64,000 nucleotides of DNA from Heterotrichella gracilis (Eukaryota; Sar; Xanthophyceae; Tribonematales; Xanthonemataceae), in NCBI GenBank assembly GCA_032358255.1, contig JAULBX010014648.1, positions 31,165-95,164 of the forward strand, in the 5' to 3' direction. Positions 18,601 to 58,782 of this stretch are shown here, one piece after another. A program made the position numbers and the translations under genes. Within the stretch, counting starts at the first letter, position 1. Every line of letters starts with the position of its first letter. A model generated the notes under the pieces. The model searched no databases, was not told where the DNA came from, and saw only the letters and a list, made by a program, of their open reading frames with translations.

Positions 18601-20240
18601 TCCCGCCCGCACGCGTAGTCCCGCAGCAGCGACACGCGCACCTGCTGGCTGTTGCGGAACAGGCAGCGCGACAGCTGGCTATCCACCGCCTGCTCAACCA
18701 GCTCCTCCAGGCGGCCCTCGGGGACCATCACCTCGGGGGGGATGGCCGCCTGCAATGATGGTGGCCGGACGGGGCGTGATGCCAAGGGGTCTATAATGCA
18801 GGTGCTGGATTACTCAAGTGGCGGTGGGTGCGCCAGCATGTGCACTATGGCAATGGATGCAGTAAGGGCTGTGCAGGTGGAGTGAAGCTATGGAAGACCA
18901 GTCGACAAATACATGCATTTCTTTGCCATCACACTGCCCAGTGTCACCGACTTGCCCCACCAGCAGACACCCCACCCACCCCCATATACGCCAATATCAC
19001 CCCAATACGCCAATATCACCCCACCCCCATCTCTCACCGTGCCCCGCCCTCCCCCAATGCCCCAGCTCCACCATATCTGCCACCATACCCCGCCAAAACC
19101 ACCCACCCCGCCACCCCCTCGCACCTGCAGCGCCACCAGCAGCTTGCGCCTGGCCGCCGCGGGCGCGCCTGGCCACTCCAGGTGCGCCTGCAGGTCCTCC
19201 TTGCCGCTGAACAGTATGCACCCGGCAAGCTGCTGCAGGCGCTGGCGCCGCACACCCAGGGCCGCAAGCTCGCTGCGTAGGCAGTGCAGGGCTACTGCGG
19301 TGTCGCTGCTCTCAAGGGCCTGTGGGTGCAAGGGAGGGGGAGGGGGGGGATTGAAGGGTGGTGGCAATTCCGGGGTGCGATAGCTGCAATTGCAAAGGAG
19401 GCTGTGTGAGTGCAGGCTGATGGCGGTGACACCACTCTCAAGGGCCTGGGTGTGTGGTGGTGGGTATGTGATGGTGGCAGTGACAGCCTGGACGAGTGCA
19501 ATAGCAAGGACATTGTGGAACACTATTTAGTGAGCAGCCTGCACATAAGGTTTGTGAGTAGAAAAGCGGGCAAACTACTATCTGCGTGTGGATACGTGTG
19601 TGTGGGTACGAGGAGTTCAGCAGGTATTTGGCAGAGGTGCAGGCCACAGTGAAGTACAGGCCCAAAGAAACTGGACGTATCAGTTGTGTGGTTTCTGTGT
19701 ACCTTTTCACTTTCGAGCACCAACAGGCGCCCTGAGACAGCTTTCTCGGATCTTTATGCTGGGTTGTGTGGACACCACATGCATGCATATCCGCACCTCG
19801 AGGAACTTTTGCTCCAGCACCAGGAATTGCGCCTCGGTGCGCTTCTCCTCGCTGACCACGGGGAGTGTCGACAGAAGTTTCACGGCCACGTCCCAATCCC
19901 CTGCCAAGATAGCAGCGCGGAACTTGTTGACAGACGCTGACTGGAACGTGACACCAGACTCCTTCTCCAGCAGCTCAGCAACGTTCTTAAAGCCCATATT
20001 GATAAGCGCCTGCTCGATGACGCGGATGTATTCGCCCCTGTTTATCCATTCCTTGCTCCCTACGAACCAAGGGTGGGAACCATGGCTGTGCGAGGTGCTC
20101 CCATTGGCGTGGCCCTCGGCAAGGGGCGTCCCATTCTGCATGCTGCTTGCCTCTCCTAGTCGAGGTTTCTTCCTGGCATGGCTTTCACACTCGGCCGGGT
20201 CAATGTTCAGCCCGGCGCTCGCCTCTGCATCTACATCCAT
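15642..20240 (-). CDS. WDR26/GID7-like LisH-CTLH-WD40 protein, 575 aa
   Basis: Family role: WDR26, like yeast Gid7, is a subunit of the CTLH/GID E3 ubiquitin ligase, promoting its assembly or recruiting substrate. Nine exons (20240-19797, 19319-19125, 18749-18576, 18039-17832, 17477-17335, 17118-16996, 16675-16497, 16294-16195, 15803-15642) join in phase. Order: a polar, possibly nuclear N-terminus (KKPR); LisH at about residues 62-97 ([15 protein letters not shown], then ELLEKESGV); CTLH at about 100-150 ([17 protein letters not shown]); a helical linker; then WD40 repeats from about residue 290 to the end ([68 protein letters not shown], ending [10 protein letters not shown]). Length matches plant WDR26 (about 590). 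An aborted copy of the start of exon 2 sits in the preceding intron (19388-19449). Confidence 0.92.
18091..18120. repeat. ATT microsatellite in WDR26-like intron
   Basis: An AT-only run of ATT/AAT units in the intron between the third and fourth coding exons of the WDR26-like gene; probably length-variable. Confidence 0.75.
19388..19449 (-). pseudogene. Partial duplicate of WDR26-like exon 2 (decoy exon)
   Basis: Reading the minus strand, an acceptor CCCAG is followed by [13 protein letters not shown], closely matching the real exon 2 start, [13 protein letters not shown], which begins at 19319. The similarity includes the acceptor and about 40 bases and then decays. The copy lies about 125 bases upstream in the same intron. 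It has a usable 3' splice site but no matching donor, so it is probably a degenerate tandem duplication; alternative splicing into it would truncate the CTLH region. Confidence 0.6.
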
Positions 20241-21643
20241 ACTCTCCGGAGTGCCACATTTAGGTTTTCTTACACTCTGTAGAAATCTTCGCGCACTTCA
20301 ACCTCGCCCCAATGGTGTCATGCAAACAGGGCGGGTGGCTCTAAACCACTTGCAAAGAACGGAGCACGTATAGAGCACGGTCACCCAGCTTGACAAGATG
20401 AGCACAGTCATCCAATTGAACTTGATGTTGGGCTTCCAAACCGAGGGATAAAGGCTTGTGTCGACACAAACAGCTTGCAAGCCCCAGCGCGGAGAGCCCG
20501 GTGGAGCCCGGCCAAAGCCCGGCATGGACCGGCCGCATCATCGCCTCTCGGGCATCCCTTGTGTCGCTTTGCGCTGGTTTGCAGCACCGTTAGGGCAATC
20601 GGAACCGCTCGGGAGCAGCTACCCAACTCTGGTTACGATACACATCGTAGCTTGCAGTGGCATGTGCAGCACCTTCTTGCCCATTTGGAGCCCGCATATA
20701 TGTGAAAGTCATGCCCATTTGCTGTCCATGCATGCATGCGGGCTTGAGCGCCTATGCGAGCAACAGTACCAACAGCGGAGCAGTGGTGGGATGCTCTTTA
20801 GCAGGAGCAAAAGAGATACACTCCGAAACCGAACACAATTGAAGAGTAGCGCACGCCGCTGCCTTGGATCGTCCGAGAGACCGCCCAGCCAGACCCACCA
20901 CCACTTGGCCAGGTGACCAGTGCAGGCAGTGTCTTCAAGCCAGGTGACAAGCTTGTCCACGGCACATGGGCATGCTGTTATCTAGCCCTTACCAACCATG
21001 TTCTTCTAGCTTGAAACCGTGCAAGCTTATTTTGTTGGTGGCCTGCTGGTACTAGCTAGTGCCCTTGGAAGCTCTCCTGCACCTCACTCCTTGGGTTCGC
21101 AACAACAGGCCAAGTGACCCTTGCCTATGCTGTGGCACATAAGCACGCATTTTCCAGCTTCTAGAATACGCGCTTACATAAGAGGGAGTTTGGTGGCAGT
21201 TTTTTCTGGCTTTTTGGCTCGTCCTAGACCAAGAGGGGACAGGTTCGGGAGGTGGACTGTGAGCCTAGTCCCTACCTTTGTTCCGTAAGTTTGGTGGAAA
21301 AGCAAGCCCTTACCAACCCATGCTTTATGTGTGCTTGCTGTGCACAGTTGGCGGGCAGTATTGCGCCCCACTGCCCCGTGCACCGCTGCACCCATAATTC
21401 TGCGGACCAGGCGAGTCCTCATGGACCCCGAGGGGTGGCCTACTCAATCTGCGCTGTCCCCTCTCAGGAACAATAATGCACCACAATATGCGAAGAGAGC
21501 GCTGGCCACGAACATGCAGCCTGTCCTGACCACCTAGCACTATGAGGAGGGCAGCACACACAGCGGGATTACTCATAGGGAGGCAGCTGCAGGGCCGTTC
21601 CATCCTCAGCCACAAAAATGCTATCCCCATCTGCACACGCATC
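20241..21643. other. Region between the divergent WDR26-like and VPS62-like genes
   Basis: Should contain promoters for both neighbours. Two overlapping CATGCATG octamers lie at 20727-20738. A weak minus-strand candidate gene at 21174-21422 is listed separately. Otherwise nothing was recognised. Confidence 0.45.
21174..21422 (-). CDS. Hypothetical small basic ORF, 82 aa
   Basis: I do not recognise a family. The frame runs from MRTRLVRRIMGA to ATKLPLM. The first 30 residues are Arg-rich, lack acidic residues and contain an RQLCTAS segment, as in a mitochondrial presequence; the rest is Lys/Leu-rich with HLPNLSPLGLG. Both a full single exon and a spliced version (a GTAAGG motif follows codon ~37) are possible. 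It lies divergent from the VPS62-like gene. It could also be a chance ORF. Confidence 0.3.
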   Translation of the reverse strand: MRTRLVRRIMGAAVHGAVGRNTARQLCTASTHKAWVGKGLLFHQTYGTKVGTRLTVHLPNLSPLGLGRAKKPEKTATKLPLM

Positions 21644-32233: not shown

Positions 32234-34171
32234 ATGAATAGTTTCCGGGTGCTGGTAAGCAACGACGATGGGGTTGGCGCGCCAGGGCTGTTAGCAATGG
32301 CAGCTGCGCTCCAACAATCTGGTGTTTGCTTCTTGGTGTGTGGCCCGGCTGGCGAGCGGTCTGCACAAAGCCACGCCATCACCATGGGCAAGCCCATGGT
32401 TGCTGTGCCTATCCTGGTTGATGGTGCTGAGGAGGCCTTCGCGGTGGAGGGCACCCCTGCGGACTCGGTGATGCTCGCACTCAACAGCAGCCTGCTACAG
32501 GTGTGGCTCAGCTGCAATGCAACCTGAACATTGCTGTAGGCTGTGGGCTGTGCAGCAGCAGTGGGGGAATACTGAACCTGGGGCCACTCCTGCATGCTCA
32601 CACCCCAGGCAAGCTCCCAGGGTGCAGGGGGTGACACTTGATGGTACTGTCAGCAATTTACTTACCCAGCCACGAGTTGTTGACGATGTCAAAAGTGGTT
32701 TGGTGCAGGACCCTCGCTGCGACCTCGTGCTTTCAGGGATCAACAGGGGTGACAACCTGGGCCTTCACGTCATCTACTCTGGAACTGTTGGAGCAGCAAG
32801 GGAGGCCGCGTGCAAGGTGACTGTGGATCAGGTTCACAAGACTTTTTTTATGAGTCATTGGCCTTTGCGCCCCCCGTTTTAGTAGACCAGCCACCCCCTC
32901 CCTCCAACCCCATTTCTCGGACAGTACATCAGCTGTCCCCCGCCACTTCCATTGGCCGAGCACCCTTTCATGGCCCGATGAAGGCCCAATCATTGTGGAT
33001 CAGCACAGTTTGTGAAAGCATTACTGGCATACCACTGGCACTAGCAATGCCGAGCACAATAAGGATTGAATTTGTTGATTTGTGCAGGGGCTTCCATCCA
33101 TAGCTTGCTCATTGGACAGCCACGCAGCGCGGTCGATACCAGAGTATGAGGTTGCCGCATCGCTTATAGTACCAATCGTCAAGGTACGCATCCAGTGCCA
33201 CATTGGAGTAACCAGGCTATGTTTTACACTGCTTCATCTTGCTCATAATGCATTCAATTTGCAGATCGAAGCATTGGCAGGCAGCCAAGTTCTAATTTTC
33301 ATGCAAAACTCCCAATGCAGTCTTTGCTAGGACTCCTGCCTGGAACCGACAATCAGCTGGCAGCATTTGGAGGGAAAATAATCAATGTCAACATCCCTGA
33401 TGCCCCACTGTCGGAGGTGAAAGGGTACTACCTTGCGCATCAAGGTGCAGCATGCCAGTACCCACTCTTTGTTGAAGCAAGCGAGACTGAGCACTTGCCA
33501 ACTGTCCACAAAGACGTTGAAGCCATGGCTCACCACGAGGGGATTGCTGGCGCACGGGTGTTCAGAAACAAGCTTGGAGAGTACAAGGGGTAAGTGCTGT
33601 GCACCTGCATACATGAAGCATTGTTCAACCAGAACCAGTGATTGATCCATGTACTAGCTTCTGCAGCTACCAAGGTGGTGTCCTTATGTCCTGCTGCATG
33701 GCTTGCAGGGACGATACCCACGGCAGTGACAGCTGGGCCTGCCGAAGTGGCTGGGTCAGTGTCACGCTTCTTGGTCTGTCATCTGATATTGCTATCACAG
33801 AGGTGAGGTGGAATCCCCCCTGCCTTTGTTTTGCATCATGTAGCCGGGGGCATATTGGCCCCAATGTGGCATTACATTACATTACATGCATGCCCCCGAA
33901 GGGATGCATCCACCGACAGTAGCCAAACGCCAGGCACTCCTGTCCAACACAATTCGCATACTGGCAATGAGTTGGGAAACAGTGATCTGGATTGAAGGTT
34001 CAGAAACAATGTGGGGTTGTACAGGTCACGCAAGATGCAGAGAACGGAGTTGTTCCAGTGCTGATCAACGTGCTGAAAGCTGCAGCAGATCACTTGAATC
34101 CGATTGTCATGCCGGTTCATGAACAGGCGCGTTTCATGTTTGGGGGACCCGGCATGCAGCAATCTTGTTGA
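32234..34171 (+). CDS. SurE-type 5'/3'-nucleotidase/phosphatase, 326 aa
   Basis: Family role: metal-dependent removal of phosphate from nucleoside monophosphates and short polyphosphates. Exons: 32234-32500, 32709-32816, 33088-33183, 33321-33589, 33709-33802 and 34025-34171; all phases agree. The N-terminus [14 protein letters not shown] carries the metal-binding NDDG with GAPGL following. Other SurE blocks: [39 protein letters not shown] (metal-binding Asn), [21 protein letters not shown] and the GWVSVT segment. Starting at MNSF matches the family, which begins within a few residues of the first beta strand; no targeting peptide is seen on this choice, but an upstream in-frame extension without a Met exists. 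The C-terminal exon ([13 protein letters not shown]) is lineage-specific in sequence. Confidence 0.9.
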
Positions 34172-35196: not shown

Positions 35197-38100
35197 GGGA
35201 AGTCAAGGCTGACCTGCTGAGCACCACTGCCCCTGGCCTTCACGCTTGTGGGCCCACATCACAGTGCCCACACCAGGATGATTCTGATGAGCCCTGCCTA
35301 GACAAAGAGCACGACGCTGGCGGTGTCATAATGACTTGCGATGCTGGGGCCATGCTCCTGCAAAGCCTGCATGAGCAATCTCCTGAAGTGTCCCCTGACA
35401 GAATGGCAAACCGCCTGGCTATGGTACGCTGCTGTTATTAGCCTGGTGGCATTTGAACTTCCTCTTCTGTAGTGGTGCATGTTGTGGCTTGCGCATTCAT
35501 TGTCAGGTCTGACCAGCCTTGTAGCCATGGTGCCAGCGCAACATGGGCAGCTACAGAGCCATGGCAGGCTATGCTGTAGCTTGATGCTTGTCGCGTGTGG
35601 GTGGTCCCCTTTTTCTGCAAGTCATCTCTTAAACCATGTAGCCCAGACAACGCCATTGACCCAATGCCAGTCCTTGCCAATTCAAAATTCTGGGAACCTA
35701 TTCCACACCCTGCTTGAGGGTGGCATGACACGCGGCAAAACCTGCACTGCACTGTCAGCAAGAACTAAATCCCAAACCCTGTGCAAGTAACTGCTATGTG
35801 GTCCAGGAGCGTTTGGCACAACATTCAAACTGACAACGTGTTAATTGCTGCTGGTGGCCATGCAGGCTGTGGATATAATACTCGAGGATGCCACCCAACC
35901 AGCAGACGTTGCGCAAATTCAAGCTACAATGCTGAAAAGGTAATCCTTGACAATACTGCCACTATGATAGAACAGCAGGTGTTGACATAGTGCTTTGGGT
36001 GATCACGCCACTAATGCCACAAAACAAAGTAAAACCAAGGCCCTTGCTTCTCTCTGATGCAGCGTTCTACACAAGCAAATCGTGCAAATGCCTCTAGCGG
36101 GTCAGAATGTTTCAAGCAGTGGCTTGAGGTATGCTGCGTCAGTGTTGGAGCTGCATACCATAAGCCAGGGATTGCTTCAAGACAACCGTTTGCCCAGCCA
36201 GCACCCCCAGCATGACGTGGTGCTGCAGCAGATTGCCACAGCACTCGCCCAGGCTCACTGTGGGCGCATGATGGAGCTAGGGGAACAGCCCCAGCTGTGG
36301 GCTTTGGCGGTGGCAACACACCATGCCATAAGTGCCAAGGCGGAAACAGACAAGGCAATAAAAAGAGAGGTTGCATCCCACTACAGCCAGCAGCATGGGA
36401 GTCCAGTGGGTGACAGGTGTGCTGACAATTATGCTGTCAAACCCAAAGTCTCGTAGCCTTAGTTTGAATTGCACATTATCAGAGGTGCATATCATCAAAG
36501 GTGCATGCTTTCATTTGGCGCAAACTGCTACAGAGCTTGTAAATGAGCGTGTGTGGGAATGCCAGCCTCAATCTTACCCCTATGGCATTTTCCTGTGCAA
36601 GGGTTGTCCGCTGGAAGCCACGCCCGCCAGCAGCATCGAGCATCAAACACATGCAATGTGTGAGCAGCGCTATCCAGATGGTGAGCGAGAAAATGTGCCA
36701 GAGCCCAAGTTTGAGCACCCTGCTAGCTGGCTCCTGCACAATCTCGTCAGCGCCTGTCATCCATGGGCTGGTGCAACACTGCTTGACCAAACCTGACGAC
36801 ATGGGTGCTTCCATTGAGCATCTATTACACCACTGTGCTGAGGTGAGTCCTCAATAATGGAATTTCATTACCTGAAGCGCTGCATGGGATCGATCCACTG
36901 CGGCAGGCCTTTATGCCCTGTTCTCAAAACGAGTTCAAAAGAGGGGCAATACCATTTTTGGCCCATTGTTGCAGGATGGCTCAGGGACTGCAGTGCAGCA
37001 GCTTTTACTTGAAGGCTGCCACCAGGCATTGCCAGAGCCCTCGCAGTCAAGGTACATTGACGTGTTTCCTTTGCACCTTGTGTGGCTGTGTGTTGCAGCT
37101 CCTACCCGCTGACACCATGTGTCTGTCTTGCTGCAGGCAACCCACCACCCTGCAGGAGCTGATCCAGTCCAAGGTGAACAAGGCAGCACCGTTGGTACGG
37201 TGCCTGCAGGACAAGCTGTCGCATGACACATTAGGGGGCAACAGGTAATGAGAATGTCTCAACCTCTTTTGGAACAAGTATTTTGCTTGAATATTGGTCA
37301 TTATTCAGAAACAGCTGTGCCTACAAGAATGCAATACCAACACTTCTTTCTCTTAAATTTATTCAAATTGATTTGCACTTCAAATATTGTTGAACAAACA
37401 GGGCCACGACTGATGAGCAAGCTCAAGTGCATGCACATGCTGGCAGCGCTGATAATGGCCTCTCCGCACCTGCCAACAATGACCCTCGCCAGGGTAGCAG
37501 TGGCCGCCAGTCACCTTGCAAGGGTCGGAGGAGGAGAACTGGTTGCAGCATGGTGAAGTACAGCATACGCACCGTGTCGTGTGCAGCTGCATCATTCAGC
37601 AAGGAGGTAGGGATACACCAAAATCCATGCTCTTGCACAGGCATCTGTTGAAAGCATCGTGATCTTACAGGAGCCAAACTTATTGTCACTCACAGGCTTT
37701 AAAATTGCTGCCTGTTTGCTCAGGTGTTCATTCCAACCACCTTGACCAGGAGGCTTGACAGGTCGCTGCGGAATGCTGGAGTCATGGAGGTGCATGGTAA
37801 AGCTGAAGCGGCCGCCAGAATTGCCAGGTGTGACACATGTAGGAAACGAATTGCATATTTGATGATTTTTATGTTGAAGCAGCTGTCAGTGTGAAGTATA
37901 CTCGGCAGCGATGATTTGTGGTGGCTGTATAAAGATGGGCATGACTGACCCGCCACACACTACTCATGCTTGCAGGGAAAAGGCTCTGCAAGAGCGCCTG
38001 GAGGCACTAAAATCCAGCAACATGGATGAGTACCTGCGCCTGGTGCAATCCAACAAGAACTCTGTGGTGCACAAGCTGCTCGCCAAGACAGACCTCTGCT

Positions 38101-41100
38101 TGCGCAACCTAGCTGCCAAGCTCAAGACAGTGTGCCAAGCTGCAGCGCTGAGATTGGAGGCAACAGTCACCCAGGGCAATGCTGCACCGCCAGAAGGTGA
38201 GCAATAAGGCGTACTCACAAGCGGTCACCCAGGGGCACTACTATATTCCTCTCCTATATTCTGTGGATAGTGCACACAACAAAGGGCATACGCAACTGTG
38301 TCACACACACACGGTCTTCACCTGGCTATAACAATGCTCCACTGGTCTGTGTACATGCAGCAGGGGCTGGTGGCCTGGCTGAGAGTAACAAGGAATGGAA
38401 TGACCTGACCAGTCAAATGCAAGCAAGCATTGACCAGCAGCCAGAGCTGCTGAAAGGTGGAGAGCTGCGGGACTACCAGATGAAGGTAATGGTGCACTGC
38501 GGTTGCTAGCATGCTGTACCCAATGAGCTTCAGGTACACTGACATGCATGCCCAGGTAAGGTGCATCCACCAACTGTGGCCACAAGCTATGCAAAGCTAT
38601 GCCTCACTGGATTGGGCATTGCCGTGACACAAGCCAATATGCGCAGGGTTTGCGCTGGATGGTCTGGTTATATGGAAATGGGCTGAATGGAATCCTGGCA
38701 GATGAGATGGGGCTTGGGAAGACAATCCAGGTACCTCCAATGCTTTCCAGTTGCCAAGTCATTGACTTGCATGGTCACACCATCCTTGCAATCTTGATGA
38801 TGTGTCACAAAGCCTTGGCAAGTGGCTGCAGGCCTGTTACCTGGTCCAGAAACCCTAAATGACTAACCCCTAAACCCTAACGCAGGTCATTGCCCTGGTG
38901 TCGTACCTGGTAGAAGTACGGAATGTTGACCGGCCATTCCTGATCATCGTCCCCTCTTCGGTGATCGCAAATTGGGAGAGGGAGGTGGCGCAGTGGGCCC
39001 CAGAGCTGGAAATGGTTGCCTACAAGGGCAATGCCGACACAAGAACCAGCATATTTGAGACAAAAGTACGGGCTGGTGTCTGGGGTGCATATTTTCACTG
39101 ATTGCAACACTAGCAACAAAAAACCAAGGGTTTGATGAATTGCAGTGTCCAATTTATCCGCCAATGTTGCTGATGTCTTTGCGGTTGTTGCAGATTGCGA
39201 GAAAGGCGCCCAATATAATTCTGACGAGTTACGAATTGCTGATGGGCAAGAATGACCGGCCTCGCCTGGCTCGCCTGCAGTATGCATACATCATTGTCGA
39301 CGAGGGCCACCGCCTCAAGAACTCAGGATGCAAACTCAACAATGAGCTGAAGTTGTACAGTGCTGGCAATAGATTGCTGCTGACAGGTGAGCAGAAAAAG
39401 ACTTCTACCTTTCCAGTTCATTAGGCCCAATTTTGCAGCTGATGCTACAATTACCTAGGGTCAGTGCGTAACTGGTTGCAATATCTATTGATAATGATGC
39501 GATGCATATCTATGATTTGCAGGAACCCCATTGCAGAACAACATGAAGGAATTGTGGTCACTGCTCAATTTCCTCATGCCAACTCTGTTCACATCAGCAG
39601 AAGATTTCCAGGACTGGTGAGTACTGCTTGAAATTGACCTGATCTACTGGCAATATTAATTTAATCTGACAAATAATGTAACGTTGGCAGCTGCCACAAT
39701 TTATATATGATAGCACCGTATCTTACGACATTGTGCGCTTTCAAAGTATATGCACTGCAATTTGTTTTTTTGTATTTGGTAGGTTTGGCCAAGATGGCAC
39801 CAATTCCAATGGAGAAGCTGGCCTAGATGAGGAATCAGCCCTGCTAGTGACCAGCCGCCTGCACACCGTCCTTCGGCCATTTATGCTCAGGAGGCTGAAG
39901 GAGAGTGTGGCGTCTGAACTACCCCAGAAGGTGCGTGCAGCTGTGCGGCAAAGGGCCAAGAAAGGAAACCAGAGGGGGAACAGTAGCCTGCAGTTGCAAC
40001 GCCGCCTGTTTGACAGATCAATCCCCTCCCTGCTGATGCACTCCTTCTTGCCACAACATTTCATTATGGTAATTATAGTATAATGCTTACCCCAGTCACC
40101 ATGGCTGACAGTATTGCGCAACCCCTAGGTGGAGCACCTCATTCCATGCCAGCCATCAGCATACCAGCTGGCCCTGACCAAGCTGATTGAGCACGAGCTG
40201 AGGGGCAATGGCCAGAAGGGCAGCGCTGAGGGTTCCAGCAGGGTGCTCAAGGGGATCAACAATACTGTCATGGAGCTGCGCAACATAGCAAACCACCCGA
40301 TGATCAGGTCAGACTGGCAGCATTGCTGATGCCAACTGTTGCCCAGTATCTTTTAATTATGCCTGATGCATCAAGAAGCTGTATACTTTGCAGCAAATTC
40401 AGAGCACAGGCAGTTTGCTCAATGTGTTGAAGTATTACGATTGCGTTGCAGTCGCTTGCATCCTGAGCACGGTGAGATGAGCCTGCCAAAGCACCACCTA
40501 CCAGCCACGCTGCGACTGTGTGGCAAGATGCAGGTCCTCGACCGCATTCTGACTGCACTGCATGCCACTGGACACAAGGCAAGTTGATTAAACTTAGTCT
40601 GCTGTGCTAATTGGTTGAATACATTGTTGGTCAGTACTTGTATGCGTGGCCAGATACAAGGGTAAAACATAATGTGCTAATTTGTTGATTGCATTCAGAG
40701 TATGGCAATACTTGTATGCGTCGCCACATAAGTGGTTAAACCATTCTGTGCTGCTCTGCCACATCAGGTGCTGTTGTTCTGCACCATGACGCGTGCTCTG
40801 GATGTCATTGAGGAGTACTTGGAATGGCGCGGGTTCAGTTCGCTGAGACTAGATGGCTCCACTGCCAGTGCAGAGCGGGGAGAGCTGGTGGAAAGGTTCA
40901 ACGATCCAGGTATGGTGTTGTGGAAGCTGTGGAGTGAAGCGAGCAGCTGATCAACTTTATAAAGATATATCTTTACCTTTTCTATACAATACATTTTTTC
41001 AGATCTCTCAACCTCATTGGCATGTGTTGATGTGGGCTTCCCTGGCAACAGACACTACGCTCTTACTCTGTTTATAATCACTGCAGAGGGCGGTGCTTTC

Positions 41101-44100
41101 ATTTTCCTCCTCAGCCTGCGAGCTGGTGGGGTGGGGCTGAACCTTCAGGCGGCTGACACAGTGATCATGTTTGACACCGACTGGAACCCCCAGATTGACC
41201 TCCAGGCCCAAGCTCGTGAGTTTTCTGTATTTTGGTTTTAGTGCCTACAAGGAAAGCCATCAGTTGCATGCACAAAATACAAAATAAATATTTGTTTTGC
41301 AGGTGCTCACAGGCTGGGACAGAAACGAGAGGTAAGAGATTTTCTGACTTGGCTTCTGCCATGCTGTGTGATAGCATGTGCCCTTGCGCAGTTCTGTCTG
41401 CGGCATGACTGATTGATCTCCACTGGCATTAATAACTAGTTTGATGTAGAATTAGTGTTGGCTGCACAATGCATATGGACTCTGTGTGTGATTTTATTTG
41501 TGATTCAGGTCCTTGTTCTTCGGCTCCAAACAGTTGGAAGCATTGAGGAACACATTTACCGGGTGGCTCAGGACAAGCGCAAGCTGGCTGATACCACCAT
41601 CACAGGTGCATAGTTGAAACTCAGTGCTGATTCAGAAACAGCTTTGCCATGGAGCCACAATACAGGAAGAATTGCAGTTTTTGACCTGCCATGCTAATGC
41701 CAACAGCGTATGTGCAGGGGGTTTCTTTGATGGCAAAACCAGTGCGGATGAGAGAAGGACGTTCCTGCTTGACATCATCCGCTCAGGTTCAAACATGCAA
41801 GAAGCTGCAGAGTCAATCAGCAGTGAACAGGCAAGACACAACAGGCTTGACTCCTTTGTTTGCTGCTTGATTGTAAAACATCAATCACGTTTGATCAAAC
41901 CTCGTTACTTGGCATTGTCATCTGCTCACTGATGGGATAAATGTTTCTGCAGCTCCACCGACTTTTAGCAAGGGGGGAGCATGAGCTGACTGTATTTCAA
42001 AAGGAGGTAGGGACATTGCACATGGTTTCTAGGTTTGACTTCAGCAGTTGGAAGCGTACATGTGCAGTGCCTGTAGTGCCACCCGCAAAGCACCAGTGTT
42101 GCTGTGATTGTTTACTGGCAAATGACCATGGCTCTGTCATAACAGAGTGCAGGAGAATCTGGCCGGATGGCCAGCCATGATGACATTGCCCCCCTGTTAG
42201 AGGAGGTCAACGCTGCACTCCTGGTGAAGCAAGATGATGAGGGCAAGGAGTATGGAAGGGGCAAACGCCGTGCCTTGGAAGCTGGAGCTGCTGCGCCAAA
42301 TGCGGAAATCCAACGCAAAAGGTAGAGATGGCTAGGGCTGCTTTATAACATCACTGACATCCCATTGGCATTGGAGACATAGCAGCACATGCACGCGTGC
42401 AGTAGTTTGATCCCCCTTTGTTTGCTGTGGCCAATGCTTACGAAACCATGGCCACGCAGGAGAAATACCACAGAGAAGGATGTCAAGACTGGCATGCCTC
42501 GCAAGGCAAAGACCAAGGCTGTTGCGGACGATGACAAAGAGCAGCAGCAGCCAGCATGCGCTGAGCAGCAACCCTGTGTGCCAGCAGCCAACTCTACACC
42601 TGATGATCATCCAGACCATGAGTTGCTGGCGCATGTGGGTGCGTGCACAGATGTGCCCACACAATTGCCTCTGGGTGTGGCAATTGCCACCATCGAGCCT
42701 GACCCCACGGCAGCAGCTGATACTAGCAGCTTTGACAGCCCTGAGCCGGGCCGCCAGATCCTGCCAGCGTTCCAGCCGGGGAGCGTACCACCAGCCACAC
42801 CCAAGGTGTCTGCAGGCACAGGTATGCTCAGACAGCAATCCAGTACTGAATATGCATGTCAGATTGGCAGCTAGCAGCTGCTGCATATCACTGACAGTAT
42901 GTCTGGTTGTAACTGGTTTGGTCAATGACATTGTATGCATGAAATTACAATGACATTTTGCAGTGCATACCATACTGTTGTTATAAGGGTACCTCCTTTT
43001 GCTGTGTTTAAGGTGTTATTGGGTTGCGCAACTCAGGATCAACAAACTCCGTCCAAATCCTTTCTTTCTCCTGCCCCTGATCAGCACCTACTTTTTTTGC
43101 AGCTTTCCAGCCACTGGTGTGCAGCCTGGCCCCTTCCAGTGAGCCAAATCCTTTGCAGCATGCTGTCAATAGCATTATATTGCCTCAGGTTCAGATCAGC
43201 CCAATTCTGCAGCTCACCCCTGCCGGGGTGGAAGCCATCATTGATTCCTGCATGCAACTGACCATCCGGGGGCTCACGCATTCGCTCCCAGCTAGCCCTG
43301 GCACAGTCGCCGAACCAGACGCACAGGGTCCTGCGCAACAGCTTCCAGAGCCTGTCAGCAGCTATGACACCCTCAGCGGTGATGTGGTGGACCCCCAGGC
43401 AATCCCTGAGACTGACAGCGTGGTGCAGCAGCAAGACCGGCTCTGCCTTGATGCTGTGTATTGCACGGGAGCTCATGGCCAGCTGCAGCCCGACCACCTG
43501 ATCCAACTCACTTTTGAGGCTGTGCCCAGTCAGAATGTGTTGCCGGAAGATCAGCTGCCGGTAAATGATGCTTCCCCACATCAAGGCGAGGAGACGGTAC
43601 ACACAGTGGGTTTTGAACGGCTGCAGCGTGCGCATCCCATTCTCCCTGTGGAACAGCATCAATCCAGGCTTGATGCGGTGATGAATAGCCTGGATCACGT
43701 GGAGGATGAACAGCCTAGCCCTGCTTGTGGTACATCTGCTGTCAACAGTGTAGGGGATGCTGACATACAGGAATCGTACCTTGATGCAGTGGTAGTGGGG
43801 AACCAGCCATCCAGCGAGGCTGACGGCACCAATTCACAGCCTGGCAGCCAACTCGGTACAGATCTCCCCCGAGCTCAGTCAGGTCTGGAAACAGCTGTGG
43901 ACACAGCCAAACAACAAATCATTGCAGCGCCAGAGTGCGATATAGCCAACCTCGGATGTACCGCCCAGGGTGTTGACTGCCCACCAGCAGGATGCTGTGT
44001 GAGCAACACACTGTGGCTCTCGGGCTCGGAGCAAACACTGGGGCTCTCAGGCGCTGGGCCAGGGCTTGAAGCACTGCCCACTGAACCAATCATGCCATCA

Positions 44101-47100
44101 GCCTCACCCCAGGCAATCACTTGTCCTGAGGTGCTGTCCATGGAGCAGGAAATTGCAGCATCAGCTGCCCCTGAAGCAGCCTGTGCGCCCAGCCCTGCCA
44201 GATCTGCCGAGCCCTGCAGCATGCCAGCTCATGCAGTGGACGCGCCTTGCAGTGCAGCAGTAAGCGTATGCACCATCGACCCGGTCCTGCAGCCGGATGC
44301 CAGCGCACTGGATCAGGATTTGCTGCAACCAGCTGATGCGCTTCAAGCAGGTTCAGGCCAGCACCCCGGTCAAACTGAACCCCAATGCCAATCTGGTCAG
44401 CCTATCGAGGTTGCACCACTGGGACAGCCTATGGATGGGAATGGCAGCCACTCACTCGCAGTGGATGGGCAGGTATGTGGGCATGGCACAAAGGGTGCTG
44501 GAGGATGAGCATACCTTTAATAAGTATCTGTGGCTAGCCATCTGGTAATCGTATCACGTTTTCAATCATCCTCCCTAATGGCTGCAAGCTGATAACTGTT
44601 CCATACCTGCGCTTTGGTAAGGGAATTTTGGGATGTGTGCATGTCCATGACATGGACCTTATCTTGCCAAGACTAAGGGTATGCTTATGTGCACTCTGCA
44701 GGGTGCTGGGCAGCCGACTGTGAGCATCAAGCTGGGGTCACAGGCCCGCAAGCGGGTGGGCATCAAACGAGCTGACGCGCGGCTACTAGGCCTGCTGCAC
44801 CCCACTCTGATGCTTGACTCAGGAACCGCGCATGAGCCCATCACTCTGCGCAACGTGGACAGCAACTGCGGTGCGCAAGTGACCTTCTACTGCAATGGGT
44901 TGCATGGGACATTCAGGCTCACCACAGGTTGGCCGGAGTTTATCAAGGAGATGCAGATTGAGGATGGCGACATTGTGGTTTTCTGGCCAATCTGCGGTGA
45001 AGTGCTGCAGCGCACCCTGCCATTCCGGTATGTATGTGCTCGGACTTTATATAAATTGAATTGAATTTTCGAAAATGCTTGTCAGATTATGGGTGTACGG
45101 TGACATTGTGAAGGTTAGCTCTGCAGCTAATCAAGACTGTATATCATGTGTCAGTATGTGTGCATTTGTCAACATGCAACTGGAATCCATGAAAAGGACT
45201 TAGTTGTAGGAACAACCTGTACGCCACTACATTCATGACAACAGGTTGGGGTACAGAGCCTGCAGCAAGCGATTTTGCCTTGCTGGTGCAGGGTTCTGAG
45301 GGGTGAGCACCTGAACATGGACCACCTGCTGGCTGTTCTTGAGCTAGACGTGCAGAGCATGGAGGCTACGGGGCACCCCCTGCCGGAAACCAATGGGCTG
45401 GACATCATTGCAGCCTGCATTGATGGTGGCAACCAGCCACCTGCAAGCCCGGTGGCAGCGGCTGCAGCGGCGTTGCAGGACAATCCTGTGATGCAAGGGG
45501 CGCACCAGCCAGCAGCAGCTTGCGCCTCTGCATCAGCCATCACCAAGCAGTGCAAGACTGGCCGGTTCCGCATGTCATTCACGTAAGTCACCTTGGTTAA
45601 TAACCAATGGTTATACATGGAAGAGCACCATAGCCAGCAGCATCTTGGATTACCATGCAGTGTGAAGCATTGGTGTATATACTCGTCATATGGTACAGGG
45701 GCCAAGGTTGAACTGGCATGTCTCCTGGCAATGATGGTTGTGGTTTATGTAGGCGGCCTGAGTCACAGCAGCTGGGGCTGGTGCAGCCAGGCAGTAAGGA
45801 GAGCACCAGCTCGCTGCTCCAGCTCACAGAGCTGACATCAGGGGTAACAAAGGTACCTTTGTATGCACAGGTGGCATGGTAGCCTATATGTTGTTGATGG
45901 CGCAACATTCACACTGCAGCATGTTCTTTGCCAAATATATGGAGCTGATCACTGGTTGTTGGTACATTATATTGCATTATAATGTGATGTTTGTGCAATG
46001 GTGTTTTGGCAAAAGAGTGGAAGCATTCTGTTTTGCAGGAGGTGGTATTCGTCGCAGACCGCCACCACGGGCACAGGCTGGCATCTGGGTGGGGGGCGTT
46101 TGTGAAAGCCTGTGGCATTGCTGGAGGCAGCATTCTGGAGTTCTTCCCAGTAGAACAGGGAAATGCGGCACCCGTGCCTGAGGAGGGTAGTGTGATCTTG
46201 AACTGCCGGTGAGTAGCATCCCTGTGGTTCTGTCCTGGTGCCTGTCATGCCTGGCTGGACAGCTGAACAGCACCATTGTGAGAAATGATCACGCACCAAC
46301 AATTTACTGTTATTTCTACACCGCAGGGTCGTCAATGGGAAGCGGTCTAAAGGTGGGGGAGTTCCTGGGGATTTCAACCAGCCTGAGGTTCTTGGGAACC
46401 AACCTGAGGATCCTGGGGACCAGCTTGAGGATCCTGGGGACCAGCCTGAGGATCCTGGGGAGCCCAGCCAGCCTGAGAATACACCACCACCCGAGCTGGT
46501 CCAGCCAACCCCATTAGGTGGATCTGCGGTGGATGCAGGCTTCAGCCAAGAAGCGGCTGTTGATCAGCATGGGCAGCCGTCACAGCCTGTAACGTTGCTG
46601 CCACAGCACCCAGGTACCACAACGGGTCCTGAAACGTTGCTATGCAGCTGCGCACCCCTTCAGATGGAAAATGCATGGGTTTGTCTGACACATGCAGATA
46701 CAATGGCACGCTTTAGGTCTAAACTTGGCTATCATGATGACATATTTTACATACATGAGTACAAGGACAGCTAACAGTGCATTTTGCTGCAGGGCCGCTG
46801 TCCTTCCTCGCACCAGAATCGGATGCCACCTTCTCGCCTATGGCCAGCATCGTGTACGGCAAGGCCCATGAGGGGCGCGCCTCCCTGCGCCGCGCTGATG
46901 CAGTGGCCCTGCTGCTGGTGTCCCACAAGCCCACCAACGTGAAGAAGGCTGCCAAGTACTCAGAGGACATCCTGCTGGAGGAGGCTCAGCTGGGGGTCAG
47001 CAAGGTGGGAGTAATATTTTTTATTTTTTGTACTGGCAGCAAGCGGTTTGCTGAGATGCCATGCAGATGTGTAGTGCCAGCCTGGCACCTGGCACTGCCA

Positions 47101-48811
47101 GGTGGAGTTGGGCTTTGAACTTCACTGCTGGGTTTGCATGTGGGTCAGCAGTGCGCTGTGACATTGCCGTGGTTAATTTACATATGCTGCGCTGGGTCCT
47201 TTGTCATCCTGCACAGTGCACATTGTAAAAAGCCCATATTTTGATGTGATTGGATGAACCAAGCCCAAGTGACAGTAAAATTCGTGTTGAATTGCGCAGA
47301 TTGGTAGCTTGTACGTGGACGCATCCCATGGCAACTACCGCCTGTTTACATGCTGGAATGACTTCATAGAGGAGTGTGGTGTAGCCCACGGGGACGTCAT
47401 TGAGTTCGGCAAATGCAGGGAGGTGACCAACAATGGTCAGCAGATGAAGCACCTACCTGTCAGGTATGCCTGGGCATTGTCTGTTGCTCGCAATAAATGT
47501 GAACTGTGCTGTTGTATATGCTGATTACTAAATTGCCAAGTATCTGATGATATTTCAATTTGAGACTGATCTCAGAGGCTGGTGATGGCAGCATGTTGCA
47601 GACAATCTTTCATTGCACTACACATCCCACTAGCTACGGCATGTTGTTCATCCACACTAATTGCGCCAACCAATGTTATCTGGCTACGATTGGTCATATG
47701 CCATAGTAACATTTTCTGCTGTCTCCAGTATGCGAGACTTATTTTCTCACTCTATTTGTCATGACATTGTGGACTTAGTGTTATGTGTGCCCTTCAGGGG
47801 CGCACAAGGCAATAAGCCGATGACGGCTGGGAATGCCTTTTGTTTGTTTGTTTGTTTGTAACAGACATGATTACGTCGGGTGGCTTCTTATTGCAGGGTG
47901 GTCAAGCAGGGCGCTGCAGCAGTCACCCCCAAGCCTGCTTCTGCGCCCAAACCGTCAGGTGTCAGCAAGTCAACCCCTGTGCCCAAGAGGAAGCAGCCTG
48001 ATGGTGCTCGTGACAGCCTGCAGAACCCACGCAAAGCACAAAAAACAGCAGCAGCTGACAAGCATGAATCCCCAGTGCCCAAGGCTGCGCTATCCAACAC
48101 CAGGCCAGTAGCCCGAAACAGCATCAATGGCCCAGTGCTGGGGCAAGCCAACCACACCCTGGCGCTGGACAGCCATGCCTCACCTCCAGCGCATGAGGAG
48201 GCAGCACCTGTGCTCCCAACCCCTGGCCCAGCCCAGCCGAGTGCAGCCCTGCCAACTCCCCGCACAGCATGCCTTGTGTCTGCTGAGAAGGCGTACACTC
48301 CCCAGGGGATGGTGGTGCCCATTGTGCTGGTGGACGAGCTCAACTTCTGGCCCAAGGTGGGTGGATGCAGGCACAGCCGTGCAGAGGGTTGGTAGTACCT
48401 CCCTTGTGGCGGGGCAGCTGACTTATCACCTGCACCTTACAGCCGTTCAATGTGTTGCTGCATTGCGCCACAGCGTACACCCACCTGCCGGTGGGTGCAC
48501 ATGCTCTCATGCAGTATTGCACTGTGCAGCAGCTGAGCAGAACTTGGCTTTCCAATTTACTGTGCATGTCCTTGTTCATGCAGGGCTTGTCTTCATCCCA
48601 GCAGCCGGCGGCCACCCTCCCCTCCCCTGCCCAGCCCCGCCAGCTTCCGCAGCCGCCATGCGAAGCCCTGTTGTCTCAGGGTGTGGTCCTGCCTGCCCCT
48701 GGCAGTGGCACCTCCACGCTTGAGCTGGTGCCTGTGTGCAGCGGTGAGCAGGCGGAGCAGGCGCTGCGCAACTGGCCATTGAACAAGAAGCAGCGCACGG
48801 AGCAGGCATGA
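35197..48811 (+). CDS. SYD-type SNF2 chromatin-remodelling ATPase fused to three B3-like domains (about 2,500 aa)
   Basis: Family role: ATP-driven nucleosome remodelling, as in SWI/SNF complexes. I can trace 37 exons; from 36063 to 48811 every junction agrees in phase. Residue numbers count from 35197. A long unrecognised N-terminus (about 1-490); a post-HSA-like helix, [18 protein letters not shown] (about 500); then the ATPase core: [11 protein letters not shown] (motif I, about 630), [23 protein letters not shown] (motif II), [45 protein letters not shown] and [18 protein letters not shown] and QAQARAHR, then [13 protein letters not shown], match Arabidopsis SYD better than BRM. After a 460-residue disordered acidic exon (43103-44472) come three B3-like domains: 44702-45027, about 45530-46208 and 46793-47463. 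The end is Pro/Ala-rich with a basic KNKKQR-like tail. Introns after 40578 and 41830 appear to be GC-AG. The first exons (35197-35939) are tentative. Confidence 0.85.
38849..38885. repeat. Telomere-like CCCTAAA repeats at a 3' splice site
   Basis: Three or more CCCTAAA-like units end one base before the CGCAG acceptor of the exon starting at 38886 in the SNF2 gene. The complement is TTTAGGG, the plant-type telomere repeat. The run forms the region where the pyrimidine tract is expected. Confidence 0.75.
44702..47463 (+). other. Three B3-like DNA-binding domains in the SNF2 gene
   Basis: Domain 1: [14 protein letters not shown], then [23 protein letters not shown] and IEDGDIVVF. Domain 2: GRFRMSF, then [25 protein letters not shown] and GGSILEFF. 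Domain 3: [15 protein letters not shown], then [26 protein letters not shown] and AHGDVIEF. Each pairs an early GR-x-x-x-hydrophobic strand with a G(or C)W-x-x-F segment and a GD/GS-hydrophobic-x-F strand, the layout of plant B3 domains. The three copies are diverged, so the triplication is old. Known B3 domains bind DNA, often RY or auxin-response elements; target is unknown here. Confidence 0.75.
46376..46459. repeat. Four 21-base coding repeats (QPEDPGD-type)
   Basis: Four tandem units of 21 bases within an exon between the second and third B3-like domains encode [21 protein letters not shown] and QPEDPGE. Multiples of three keep the frame; copy number is likely to vary between strains. 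Confidence 0.9.
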
Positions 48812-49709
48812 CGGGGCCACTGCAGTAATACTATCAGCCAACACAGATTAGAAGCTGCTGCCTGCAAGCCGCTTGAAATGACTTTTTAGGAGAAATTCTT
48901 GTGACAGTTTGTCCGCAAGTACTCGAGGCTGCCTTTTAGGGGTTACAGTGCTTCAAATAAGCTAGCAGTGGAACTTCCTTCAGGGCAGCGATGCGCAGAT
49001 AATATGCATCACTTAATGCGGCAATGTAGTGCAGTCATTGTACATGCATCATGCAAGCACAATGTTCAATAGATTAAATCAGTACTGTCGGGTGTCTGGC
49101 CGTGTTCATCACAATGCCATCTCTATCAGGCTCTCCCAATTATTAGTACGTATAAATAATAATATTATACCATATATGGTATTTGTGCACATGTACTGCG
49201 CCATTCTTGGTGCACTGTGCAGCGTACTGTGATGGCGCAGTTTCTTATAGTGTGCAATATTCAACAGGGAGTGTGCATGTTTCTCGGGGTGAAAATTTTG
49301 GCAAATGGATTTGGAAAGCCGACTGCAGCGGCTCCAGCAAGATCCTGTCACCATGATTGAAGATGTAACATATTATATAATGCGCCATTGGCAATCAATG
49401 TATGCCCACACACTTTGCATTGCCAATAGCAACCCCGCAGCCTGCAGCAGTTTAATCGATCGGAGGTTAACACACCAAACAGCTGGTGCAGGGTTTTCCT
49501 GGTTGCCCTACCCCTAGGGCGAGATCTCCCCGTTTCACACCCTGTGCCGCTCCCCCCCTTGTTTGCATGCATTGGCGAGAAACAAACCAGCCTACAAAAC
49601 ACTGGCGGTTGCAACCAGCTCGCCAGCTTGTTGTCTCGCTATTTACATCACCACTACAGTCTTGCAGCCGGCTTTGGCTTTCGTGCAAACCTACTCACAC
49701 TCCGTAGCA
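48812..49709. other. Intergenic region between the SNF2-B3 and Pro-Gln-tail genes
   Basis: Contains the 3' end of the SNF2-B3 gene and the upstream region of the next gene. A short palindrome, ACCATATATGGT, lies at about 49169-49180. Nothing else was recognised. Confidence 0.45.
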
Positions 49710-56200: not shown

Positions 56201-57904
56201 ACACACAGGTCAGCACCAGGAGCCGGGTGGTGGATGGGTGCAGGGTGTGCGGGTGCTTGGTGCATGGGCCATTGGGTGTGTAGTAGAGGTTGATGGAAGC
56301 GTGCATGGGTGCATGGTGAAAGGGTGATGGCAAAATGGGCTTGCAGCGGAGGGTTGATGGGTAATTGGTGAAGTGGTTATGGTGTGGATGAATGTGTGGC
56401 GCAGGGTCAATGGCATCCATGGGCCCACACCACGGTGCTCTGGAACAAGTTGATGGATCATTGCGATTCAGAGTAAGAATTATAAGTATAACATTGCTGG
56501 ATCATTGAGAACAGGCCATGCACCGGCGCTCGCATCCCAGGGTTTGCATCTGGCTGAGCACAGCTGCATGATTCCCACACCCCTCACCCACACAGGCGTG
56601 TACCAGGCATGGCACTGCGGCCCCACCTCTGCACCCATTGCCACCGATGCGCAACCCTAAGCAAACCCTACCTACTGGCAGATACCCCGGGTACAGCATG
56701 GCGCCAGGTGGCGTGTCGTGCCAGATGCCTGCCTTGGCTGCCCCGAAAGCGTATCCATACATCTCTGATATCCATGGCTTGTCTCCCGGGTGGGTGGCGT
56801 ACACGTCACCGGACAGGTGCCAGGCCTGAGATGGAGGGGGAGAGGGTTGAGGTTCAAGAGGTGCAACTGGCTGGAACGCGTGGGGGAGGGGAGACGTGTG
56901 TGTGTGCTTATGGCATGCTGATAGGAGGGTGCGCATGCGGGTGGCAGGAATCATGCACCCGCTGCCCTGAGACCCTGGGCTAACGTCAAGGTGCATGCAG
57001 ATGGACATGTGGATGCTGTACCTGTGTGCCTCAAGGTGGGTGCAGAACAGGTGTGTGGTGCAGACCAAGGGTTTTGACTCGTTTGACTAGCTGCTAGATG
57101 CAAACTTCTGCAGAGCAGCTAGTGTGGGATGTTGATACTCTTGCACACAACCAAATTGTGACCAAGGTAGTACCCATGTGAATAGGCGGTACTCATGCGT
57201 GCAGTGCAGCGCTGCGTGTGTTTGCCCTACTGCTGAGCCCTGCCGGTACGCACCTCTGGGTCAAAGCGCACGTCCTCGGTGTACTTGAGCCACAGGGGGG
57301 CAAGCACCTCCAGATCCGTGCGCAGCATCATGGTGAACCCCCCCACCATGTCCGCTTTCCTCCCAAAGGGCCCCGCCCGCGAGTCGTTGCGCTTGGCGAT
57401 CTCGGGTATGTGGATGTCAGCTAGCTCGTTTGACACCCCCTTCATGTACCCGAAGAAGGCTGAGATGGCCTTGCCGCGCTCCAGACCCAGTTCCTCTGGA
57501 ATGAAAGGCTCCCGCATGATCATGTCAGCATCCACCACCAGGATGACGTCCTCTGTGGGCTTGACGTCTTGCAGCCAGTGCATCACAGCGCCAGGCTTGT
57601 TGTAGGCTGAGTACACGTCGCCTGACCGAGGGTGGACGGTGTATGAAGGGGCGATGTATGTGGGCATGAGGTCTGTGTGGGGGTACTTTTTCCTCTGCTC
57701 CTCTGTGCAACTCATGAGGCGGGTGAAGGGACCTGGTTGGCCAGACTTTTTGTGGCTGTAGTACATGCCGATGGACTGCCAGCTGAAGTAGATGGTGCAC
57801 TCTGTGGTGATTACTGTGTGCACTGTGAGCTTTGCTGCAGCTGAGCAGACCAGCAGCAGCAAAACTGCTGCCCAAGGTAACGTTGGAGTCATACTGTGCT
57901 GCAT
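53201..57904 (-). CDS. SERGT1/SGT1-like peptidyl-serine alpha-galactosyltransferase, 690 aa
   Basis: Family role (GT96): attaches galactose to serine of hydroxyproline-rich glycoproteins such as extensins, in the ER/Golgi. Eight exons (57904-57254, 56825-56672, 56181-55997, 55609-55406, 55061-54834, 54513-54232, 53794-53572, 53346-53201) join in phase. A signal peptide (WAAVLLLLVCSAAA) precedes the family hallmark HTVITTECTIYFSWQ. Later come PGPFTRLMSC, a DxD-type VVDADMIMREPF, FGYMKGV, a GKADMVGGF-like stretch (here RKADMVGGF), SGDVYATHPGDKPWISEMYGYAFGA (split across fewer residues here), and PKVLHYGLHF. An ShKT-like six-Cys motif (CPQWAKAGECEKN, then CRPSCGVC) follows at 54960-55060. A single membrane helix (MWVSIVVLFLMLL) lies near the C-terminus, giving type I topology as in Chlamydomonas SGT1. 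Exon 4's start is embedded in a triplicated segment with telomere-like repeats. Confidence 0.88.
55587..55745. repeat. Three tandem copies of an exon boundary separated by TTTAGGG tracts
   Basis: The segment AGGTCGCGCATAAGCTCCTG with CCCTGCGGGAGGA after it appears three times, about 62 bases apart (anchors at 55601, 55664 and 55725). Copy 1 contains the real start of SERGT1-like exon 4; copies 2 and 3 lie in the upstream intron. Between copies are TTTAGGG runs (55621-55646 and 55682-55708), the plant-type telomere unit. Copies 2 and 3 keep potential acceptor AGs. Confidence 0.85.
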
Positions 57905-58782
57905 CGTGAAGCCCGCTACCCACCACGGGAAGGAGACTGTTTCTAAATCAGCCAGGAAGCGTCATCAGCTGTATTGCAAGTTTAACAGGAGCCTGTTTGA
58001 ACCCTGCTACCTCGCAGTCTGGCGCTAGTGGCTGCCATCAGCTTCGTGGCTGGTCTCGGTTGGGTACCGTGGATCCAGATGGAGGTACACATGCACCAGA
58101 GTAACGAAACAGAGAGGATTCAGATCTGGGCGCAGGCCCTTACAATAGAAAGTAACAAGTATCGTTCAAACTGGCAGCATCGTGCGGTGTTGTGTACCCC
58201 GCACGTGCGTCGTGGACGGATTGCTCTCTTGCATGCGTTCAGTGCACGACGGAAACCACCTTGACATGAAGTACTGCGTCAGTAGGCAAAGGTTGACATC
58301 TATTGCGCTACTAAACCCCTTACTTGAACAGCAGGTTCCAGCTTATTGCAACTGGAGTCTGTCGCGAACCTGCCGGTGCGCAAATGCATGCATATGCGGT
58401 TCACCCCCGTTTTTCAGGAACTTGCATCGTATGCATGCATCCTGCAAAAAACGTTATAAACCCCAGTTGCTCCATAACAAACTATCACATACACCCAGAG
58501 TATGGTTCAGTGTCTCACCCTTTTGCGCAGGTACTGTTGCGAGTCTGTTTCACGGTTGTTTGTGACGTGCATGCACTATTGCTGCCACAAAACAACCCAG
58601 CGTTGAACTGGTTCGTTTGTATTTACGTCCACGAGTGAAGGGACTAGAGGCTTCCGACCTTGCACACCACAAAGCGTACAACCCAAACTGTTGCTCAATC
58701 TGTGTCCTGTCTGGCATCGCATCCAGTTACTCATCCAGTACTCATTCTACATGCCGATCCCGGCTGCGCCCGGACCACAATA
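57905..58782. other. Region between the divergent SERGT1-like and ADCK1-like genes
   Basis: Shared promoter region. Two TGCATGCA octamers lie near 58383 and 58431, between the genes. No coding segment or clear TATA box was recognised. Confidence 0.45.

Follow-up and report, generated by a model that had tools for sequence, protein, structure and literature searches.

In land plants, the SYD chromatin remodeller has a long C-terminal extension, and REM-type proteins string together several divergent B3 domains and are not known to contain an ATPase. A supplementary-figure legend in PMC3842944 gives the bromodomain, QLQ, and HSA as domains that members of the plant Snf2 subfamily carry besides the ATPase region. 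In Arabidopsis, MONOPTEROS/ARF5, a factor with a B3 domain, uses its middle region to recruit BRM or SYD, as described in a passage of PMC10690734. A gene in which the two kinds of protein would be joined lies in a stretch of 64,000 nucleotides from Heterotrichella gracilis (GenBank assembly GCA_032358255.1, contig JAULBX010014648.1, positions 31,165 to 95,164 of the forward strand). This whole stretch will be called the window, and positions are given within it. The best reading of the DNA, which we consider likely to be correct, is one gene encoding one protein of ~2,416 residues, with a SYD-type ATPase followed by a long linker and three B3-like domains.

The predicted protein resembles plant SYD in having a SYD-type ATPase core and a long C-terminal extension, which is also seen in Klebsormidium P0013. 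On the other hand, B3 (PF02362) is found in the precomputed domains of none of the 120 ATPase homologues listed (7,989 were found). This agrees with the figure legend of PMC3842944 and with the statement in an earlier note on this DNA that plant SYD and BRM carry no B3 domain. Rescanning the homologues P0001, P0005, and P0054 gave no B3 match at E ≤ 1 either. As in the multi-B3 REM-type proteins, divergent B3 domains stand in series in the predicted protein, but the REM-type proteins are not known to have an ATPase, and the assignment made here is to B3 as a whole and not to one of its subfamilies. As in the pairing of MONOPTEROS/ARF5 with BRM or SYD, a B3 protein and a SYD-type ATPase would come together at target genes, but in Arabidopsis they do so in trans as two proteins, and the B3 domain of MONOPTEROS/ARF5 is of the ARF type. 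According to passages in PMC11685440, ARF and RAV B3 domains are found only in streptophytes, REM-like and ABI3/HSL-like B3 domains are found in chlorophytes, and B3 domains in general are confined to green plants. The earlier note knew of no described protein with this architecture, and among the matches listed in searches of open-access papers none describes a protein combining B3 and Snf2 domains.

The rebuilt gene and its conserved domains

The gene has been assembled by hand from open frames and splice sites on the forward strand at 35331-48811. It has 35 exons and 2,416 codons, running from an ATG at 35331 to a TGA ending at 48811. The start codon is probably the one at 35331, which corrects the earlier note; alternatively, exon 1 might open at an acceptor at 35198, a position that is a possible exon start and no more. 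Phase agrees at all 34 junctions, including those from 36063 to 48811 for which the earlier note had claimed it, and the Snf2 core, the long low-complexity exon at 43103-44472, and the three B3-like domains are confirmed at their stated places in one reading chain. A single open forward frame is found in 27 of the 35 exons. Five splice sites (the donors of exons 3, 29, and 31 and the acceptors of exons 24 and 28) have been set to a nearby alternative that restores phase or GT, while the original donors and acceptors have been kept unchanged at the junctions critical to the fusion, 24/25, 25/26, and 26/27. The start of exon 28 is at 45292, which corrects the earlier note, and the donor of exon 29 at 45852 has been chosen over 45843 (leave-one-out scores of 7.51 vs 0.22). 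The introns are GT-AG in 32 cases and GC-AG in 2; the GC-AG introns, at 40579 and 41831 (after exons 17 and 22), are within the ATPase part. The window holds no N, so an assembly gap has been rejected as the cause of the join; a misassembly that leaves no gap could still produce it. The features of the gene, with the evidence used to place them, are the following.

35331-35423, 35866-35939, 36063-36416, 36668-36842, 36975-37051, 37137-37244, 37402-37606, 37724-37827 (+): exons 1-8, N-terminal region of ~396 amino acids in which no domain is recognised (phase chain)
37976-42006 (+): exons 9-23, both lobes of the Snf2 ATPase and a conserved post-ATPase segment (Pfam, PDB, homologues)
42146-42321 (+): exon 24, which closes the conserved SYD core and carries the GRGKR motif
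42322-42459 (+): intron 24, length 138 (median 164)
42460-42821 (+): exon 25, linker that is basic at first and then of low complexity (open frame, 3-base periodicity, GC 0.59)
43103-44472 (+): exon 26, linker of 457 residues (openness, periodicity, splice-site ranks)
44702-45027 (+): exon 27, B3 domain 1 (Pfam B3, PDB matches)
45292-45582 (+): exon 28, spacer, with B3 domain 2 probably beginning in its final residues (phase chain)
45753-45852 (+): exon 29, first half of B3 domain 2 (splice-site score)
46039-46208 (+): exon 30, second half of B3 domain 2 (alignment to domain 1)
46327-46613 (+): exon 31, spacer with a 21-nt tandem repeat
46793-47004, 47300-47463 (+): exons 32 and 33, B3-like domain 3 (alignment to domain 1)
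47897-48356, 48584-48811 (+): exons 34 and 35, proline-rich C-terminal tail of net charge +9, and the stop
49364-49368 (+): first TGTAA 3' of the TGA

The ATPase part matches SNF2-rel_dom (E 1.3e-80) and Helicase_C (1.3e-24) in Pfam and has the Walker A (DEMGLGKT), DEGH, and C-lobe motifs, which make it a two-lobed Snf2 ATPase. The best PDB chain is BRG1 (2.5e-154); BRG1, STH1, and SNF2 are at the top of the ranking, with DDM1, ISWI, INO80, and CHD lower. Judged from this ranking and from the best homologues rather than from a tree, the ATPase is of the SYD/SMARCA Snf2 subfamily, nearer to BRG1/SNF2/STH1 and SYD than to ISWI, CHD, or INO80. Micractinium, Coccomyxa, Chlorella, and Elliptochloris are among its best-scoring relatives, with 57–59% identity (59% for Micractinium P0001). 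These relatives mark the host as a green alga, most likely a trebouxiophyte. Among the land-plant matches listed, which are mostly 54–56% identical, SYD is the only subfamily that is named, many of the names being generic or truncated. By eye, the conservation reaches the GRGKR motif in exon 24, which is common to P0001, P0004, and P0005.

Some domains that accompany related ATPases are missing from the Pfam results. Many of the plant SYD matches listed carry SnAC (PF14619), whereas the rebuilt protein gives no Pfam match to it at E ≤ 1; yet its alignment with BRG1 reaches residue 562 of the 564-residue query, and in Micractinium P0001 itself SnAC has only an E of 0.056. QLQ and HSA have no Pfam match at E ≤ 1 in the N-terminal 600 amino acids, and QLQ is not obligatory in SYD. 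No bromodomain was found by Pfam in the parts scanned, which left out exons 34-35. In the genome searched (68.5 Mb in 903 contigs, with the window on contig C148), no second copy of the ATPase or of the tail was found, and the other Snf2 loci, including those on contigs C903 and C75, show 36–63% piecewise identity.

The first B3 domain, in exon 27, matches Pfam B3 with 28.2 bits (E 1.9e-6), slightly below the cut-off of 30.1, and in the PDB it matches just four proteins at E ≤ 10, each of them a B3 protein (NGA1, TEM1, RAV1, and At1g16640; E 0.02–0.78). When exons 27-33 are joined, the Pfam B3 score rises to 43.7 bits, which is above the cut-off. Taken alone, domain 2 has a Pfam B3 E of 0.031 and domain 3 has no Pfam match; phmmer searches of the PDB gave four weak unrelated matches for domain 2 and two for domain 3, none of them B3. 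The three repeats align with each other at z scores of 14.8 (domains 1 and 2), 21.5 (1 and 3), and 13.5 (2 and 3), none of which is reached by any of 2000 shuffles, and 26 control pieces taken from elsewhere in the protein all stay at or below z 4. A profile made from the three repeats matches NGA1 (0.0026), RAV1 (0.0038), TEM1 (0.0088), and At1g16640 (0.53) in the PDB; these are the 4 B3 chains among 12 matches at E ≤ 10, the other 8 being antibody chains with E above 1. An intron is located at the same place and in the same phase after each repeat (R/VLRG, R/VVNG, and R/VVKQ, with the slash at the intron), the acceptor of exon 28 having been chosen among alternatives.

The genome has four further B3-like loci (on contigs C200, C846, C60, and C24), each singly below the curated cut-off. 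A profile of these loci matches LEC2 at 8.3e-11, to be read as a check and not as fresh evidence because the loci had been picked with the B3 model. Comparing the three repeats with the four loci by hhalign gives a P of 8e-6 and a probability of 83.5%. B3 ancestry of the three tail domains is thus well supported by the sequence comparisons, since the joined tail is above the Pfam cut-off, domain 1 has nothing but B3 among its PDB matches, and the repeats align with one another; the B3 identity proposed earlier has been borne out by domain search. The best of the four loci is an open reading frame (ORF) with a B3 domain (positions 4409-5173 of the locus L031, outside the window, minus strand; E 4.2e-5). 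Between B3 domains 2 and 3, exon 31 has a 21-nt tandem repeat at 46377-46460, of the 7-residue type QPEDPGD.

The tail domains are putative DNA binders. The B3 fold is a pseudo-barrel of seven strands with two helices, and B3 domains contact DNA through an N-arm and a C-arm. Both the Pfam match (profile positions 37–83 of 101) and the PDB matches are confined to the second half of this fold, and the first half, which is the N-arm half, is not recognised in the Pfam or PDB alignments. Also, an AlphaFold model of domain 1 (four window-exon rows) has a pLDDT of 38.2 and was not used. These points count against the proposed reading. Alternatively, the fusion could be real but its B3-like domains could have lost DNA binding and serve instead as protein contacts or a complex scaffold, a reading that is compatible with the fusion and that we regard as possible, if somewhat unlikely. 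It is favoured by the divergent first half of the fold, by domains 2 and 3 being weak or unseen in Pfam when scanned singly, and by a net charge of just 0 to +2 in the B3-like domains. On the other hand, the fold-core residues of domain 1, W77, F80, G89, and F94, are identical in all three domains; the acidic D that follows this glycine is present only in domains 1 and 3.

The junction at intron 24 and the linker

The ATPase and the B3-like domains are connected across introns 24, 25, and 26. Candidate splice sites (471 donors and 226 acceptors) were ranked in the region 42000-45100 with matrices derived from the gene's remaining 31 introns. For introns 24, 25, and 26 in turn, the donor ranks are 10, 2, and 1, and the acceptor ranks are 4, 1, and 3. 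Exon 25 is needed because the frame is broken if it is skipped, and the frame is also broken if exons 25 and 26 are skipped together. We infer that splicing removes intron 24 from the mature mRNA. The earlier note had the coding phase continuing without a stop, which holds if intron 24 is spliced but not if it is retained.

The linker encoded by exons 25-26 has 578 residues, is acidic and of low complexity, and is presumably flexible. The product of exon 26 has a net charge of -49, is rich in A, P, Q, and S, and is nearly without lysine. The linker is probably disordered, judged from its composition and not from a predictor. The frame of exon 26 is open in none of 2000 base shuffles, while that of exon 25 is open in 99 of 2000, so that openness alone is insufficient as proof for exon 25. 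Both exons show 3-base periodicity (p 8e-6 for exon 25 and 3e-15 for exon 26) and are GC-rich relative to their introns. From intron 23 onward, 10 of the 12 introns have a periodicity p above 0.05, introns 24 and 34 having values of 0.039 and 0.028. The openness and periodicity of exon 26 indicate that it is real coding sequence.

Several observations at this junction weigh against a single protein. In a leave-one-out comparison of the 34 introns, the donor of intron 24 is the 4th lowest and its acceptor the 17th lowest. A TAG at 42323-42325 is located directly after this donor, and retention of the intron ends the frame there. The codon log-odds of the linker exons are weak, with 0.10 bits per codon for exon 25 and 0.06 for exon 26, compared to 0.46 and 0.39 for the unseen exons 24 and 27 and 0.28–0.83 for the ATPase exons, on which the scores were trained. 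Read in reverse, exon 26 has one frame with a score of 0.18, but that frame holds 8 stops. A test of synonymous codons gave no separation of the coding frame from the other frames.

An in-frame stop immediately after a weak donor would fit two genes in tandem, with the ATPase stopping at this TAG and a separate factor with three B3 domains starting at an ATG at 42389, 42434, or 42494, in or just before exon 25, or at 43252 in exon 26. The conserved SYD core finishes just upstream of the TAG, the orthologues have variable tails or neighbours here, and a TGTAA is present at 42908. TGTAA is the usual poly(A) signal of green algae, a consensus that may not be that of this genome. However, there is no TGTAA from the TAG to 42908, and this first one falls within intron 25. 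The top-ranking splice sites of the region connect exons 25, 26, and 27, so a second coding region would need to begin within ~170 nt of the stop and fit a 3' end, a promoter, and a 5' end into that space, or overlap the first; otherwise exon 25 would be a frame open by chance, despite its periodicity. For comparison, the median spacing of colinear monocistronic ORFs is 2,518 and 3,415 nt in Auxenochlorella and Chlamydomonas, as given in a passage of PMC11291117. We consider tandem genes unlikely.

The same stop could also lie within a bicistronic mRNA in which intron 24 is kept, the ATPase is ORF 1, and the B3 protein is translated as ORF 2 by leaky scanning. The distance from the stop to the in-frame ATGs at 42389-42494 is 63–168 nt, which is within the range of the bicistronic loci of green algae, whose ORF distances have medians of 40 and 183 nt in the same passage of PMC11291117. 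In these loci, leaky scanning is supported and ORF 1 is short, with medians of 291 and 357 nt (same source). Here, ORF 1, far from short and ATG-poor, would be 3,285 nt long and contain 81 ATG triplets over all frames, and we regard a bicistronic mRNA as very improbable.

Finally, a TAG right after a below-average donor would be a natural switch for alternative splicing. Keeping intron 24 would give a SYD without B3 domains, removing it would give the fusion, and both would be made. This reading is compatible with the fusion, and we hold it to be doubtful but worth considering. The likelihoods given to these alternatives are not mutually exclusive.

Relatives and proposed working

A single protein from this locus would be a lineage-restricted fusion joining three B3-like domains to a SYD-type ATPase, and from the sequence we believe that this fusion is probably real. 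No free-standing relative of the B3 tail (408–1298 amino acids) was found among 7998 scored candidates at E ≤ 10, and no fused relative (query residues 1270-1405; proteins of 1109–3528 amino acids) was found among 227. Both searches rely on shared 5-residue words and may miss distant relatives. The same domain order in related algae, which would have supported the fusion, was not seen in any of the orthologues found, and this counts against it, as does the observation that P0001, P0004, P0005, and P0006 end in unrelated domains, some of them probably merged models.

The tail of the Micractinium orthologue has DUF5054. The Elliptochloris orthologue ends in PF01494, an FAD-binding oxidoreductase domain, and PF01545, a cation efflux domain, and the Coccomyxa orthologue has, by eye, a stretch resembling the Elliptochloris oxidoreductase. 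Because several of these algal tails look like neighbouring genes merged by annotation, the fusion described here is also to be viewed with caution. Chlorella vulgaris P0005 (1534 amino acids) resembles the predicted protein in having a SYD-type ATPase with a transcription-factor DNA-binding tail, but the tail consists of GATA zinc fingers (3 stretches, 7.1e-18) instead of B3. It may be either a merged model or a second remodeller carrying a transcription-factor domain. In Edaphochlamys debaryana P0054 (3222 amino acids), one of the AP2-like stretches in the tail of the SYD-like protein has an E of only 0.08, and AP2 identity has been rejected as a call. The tail of P0054 also has a repeated motif, seen by eye, one copy of which has no Pfam match.

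Taken together, these tails could suggest that green-algal SYD-type ATPases have repeatedly acquired, as C-terminal tails, sequence-specific DNA-binding domains from plant transcription factors (B3 here, GATA in Chlorella, and AP2-like in Edaphochlamys) and become self-targeting, while land plants kept recruiter and ATPase apart. On the present comparisons, we consider such repeated capture improbable.

If the predicted protein is made, the ATPase would move or evict nucleosomes within a SWI/SNF complex. The 578-residue linker would extend the range of the protein, and it may also have the role of an activation domain. Binding of DNA by the B3 array, perhaps sequence-specifically through several weak contacts, would anchor the ATPase, or the SWI/SNF complex assembled around it, at chosen sites without a separate recruiter. 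The partnership of B3 and SYD known in trans from Arabidopsis would then act in cis. Self-targeting to specific sequences, as the earlier note had proposed, is a plausible hypothesis. Recruiter and remodeller would be combined in a single chain, which would offer a natural experiment on SWI/SNF targeting, since the sites of the B3 array should predict nucleosome movement with no partner needed. As a domain fusion, the gene would also be an evolutionary pointer to the B3-SYD partnership.

Neighbouring genes

The upstream neighbour of the gene is on the same strand and starts with a SurE domain (32234-32503, plus strand; Pfam 2.5e-19). Pfam matched five of the ten window ORFs given to it, SurE included. 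The others, all on the minus strand, are a glycosyl hydrolase 47 (2456-2878), CCCH zinc fingers (11277-11936), a WDR26-type LisH (19710-20297), and a hydroxyproline O-arabinosyltransferase (57230-57961).

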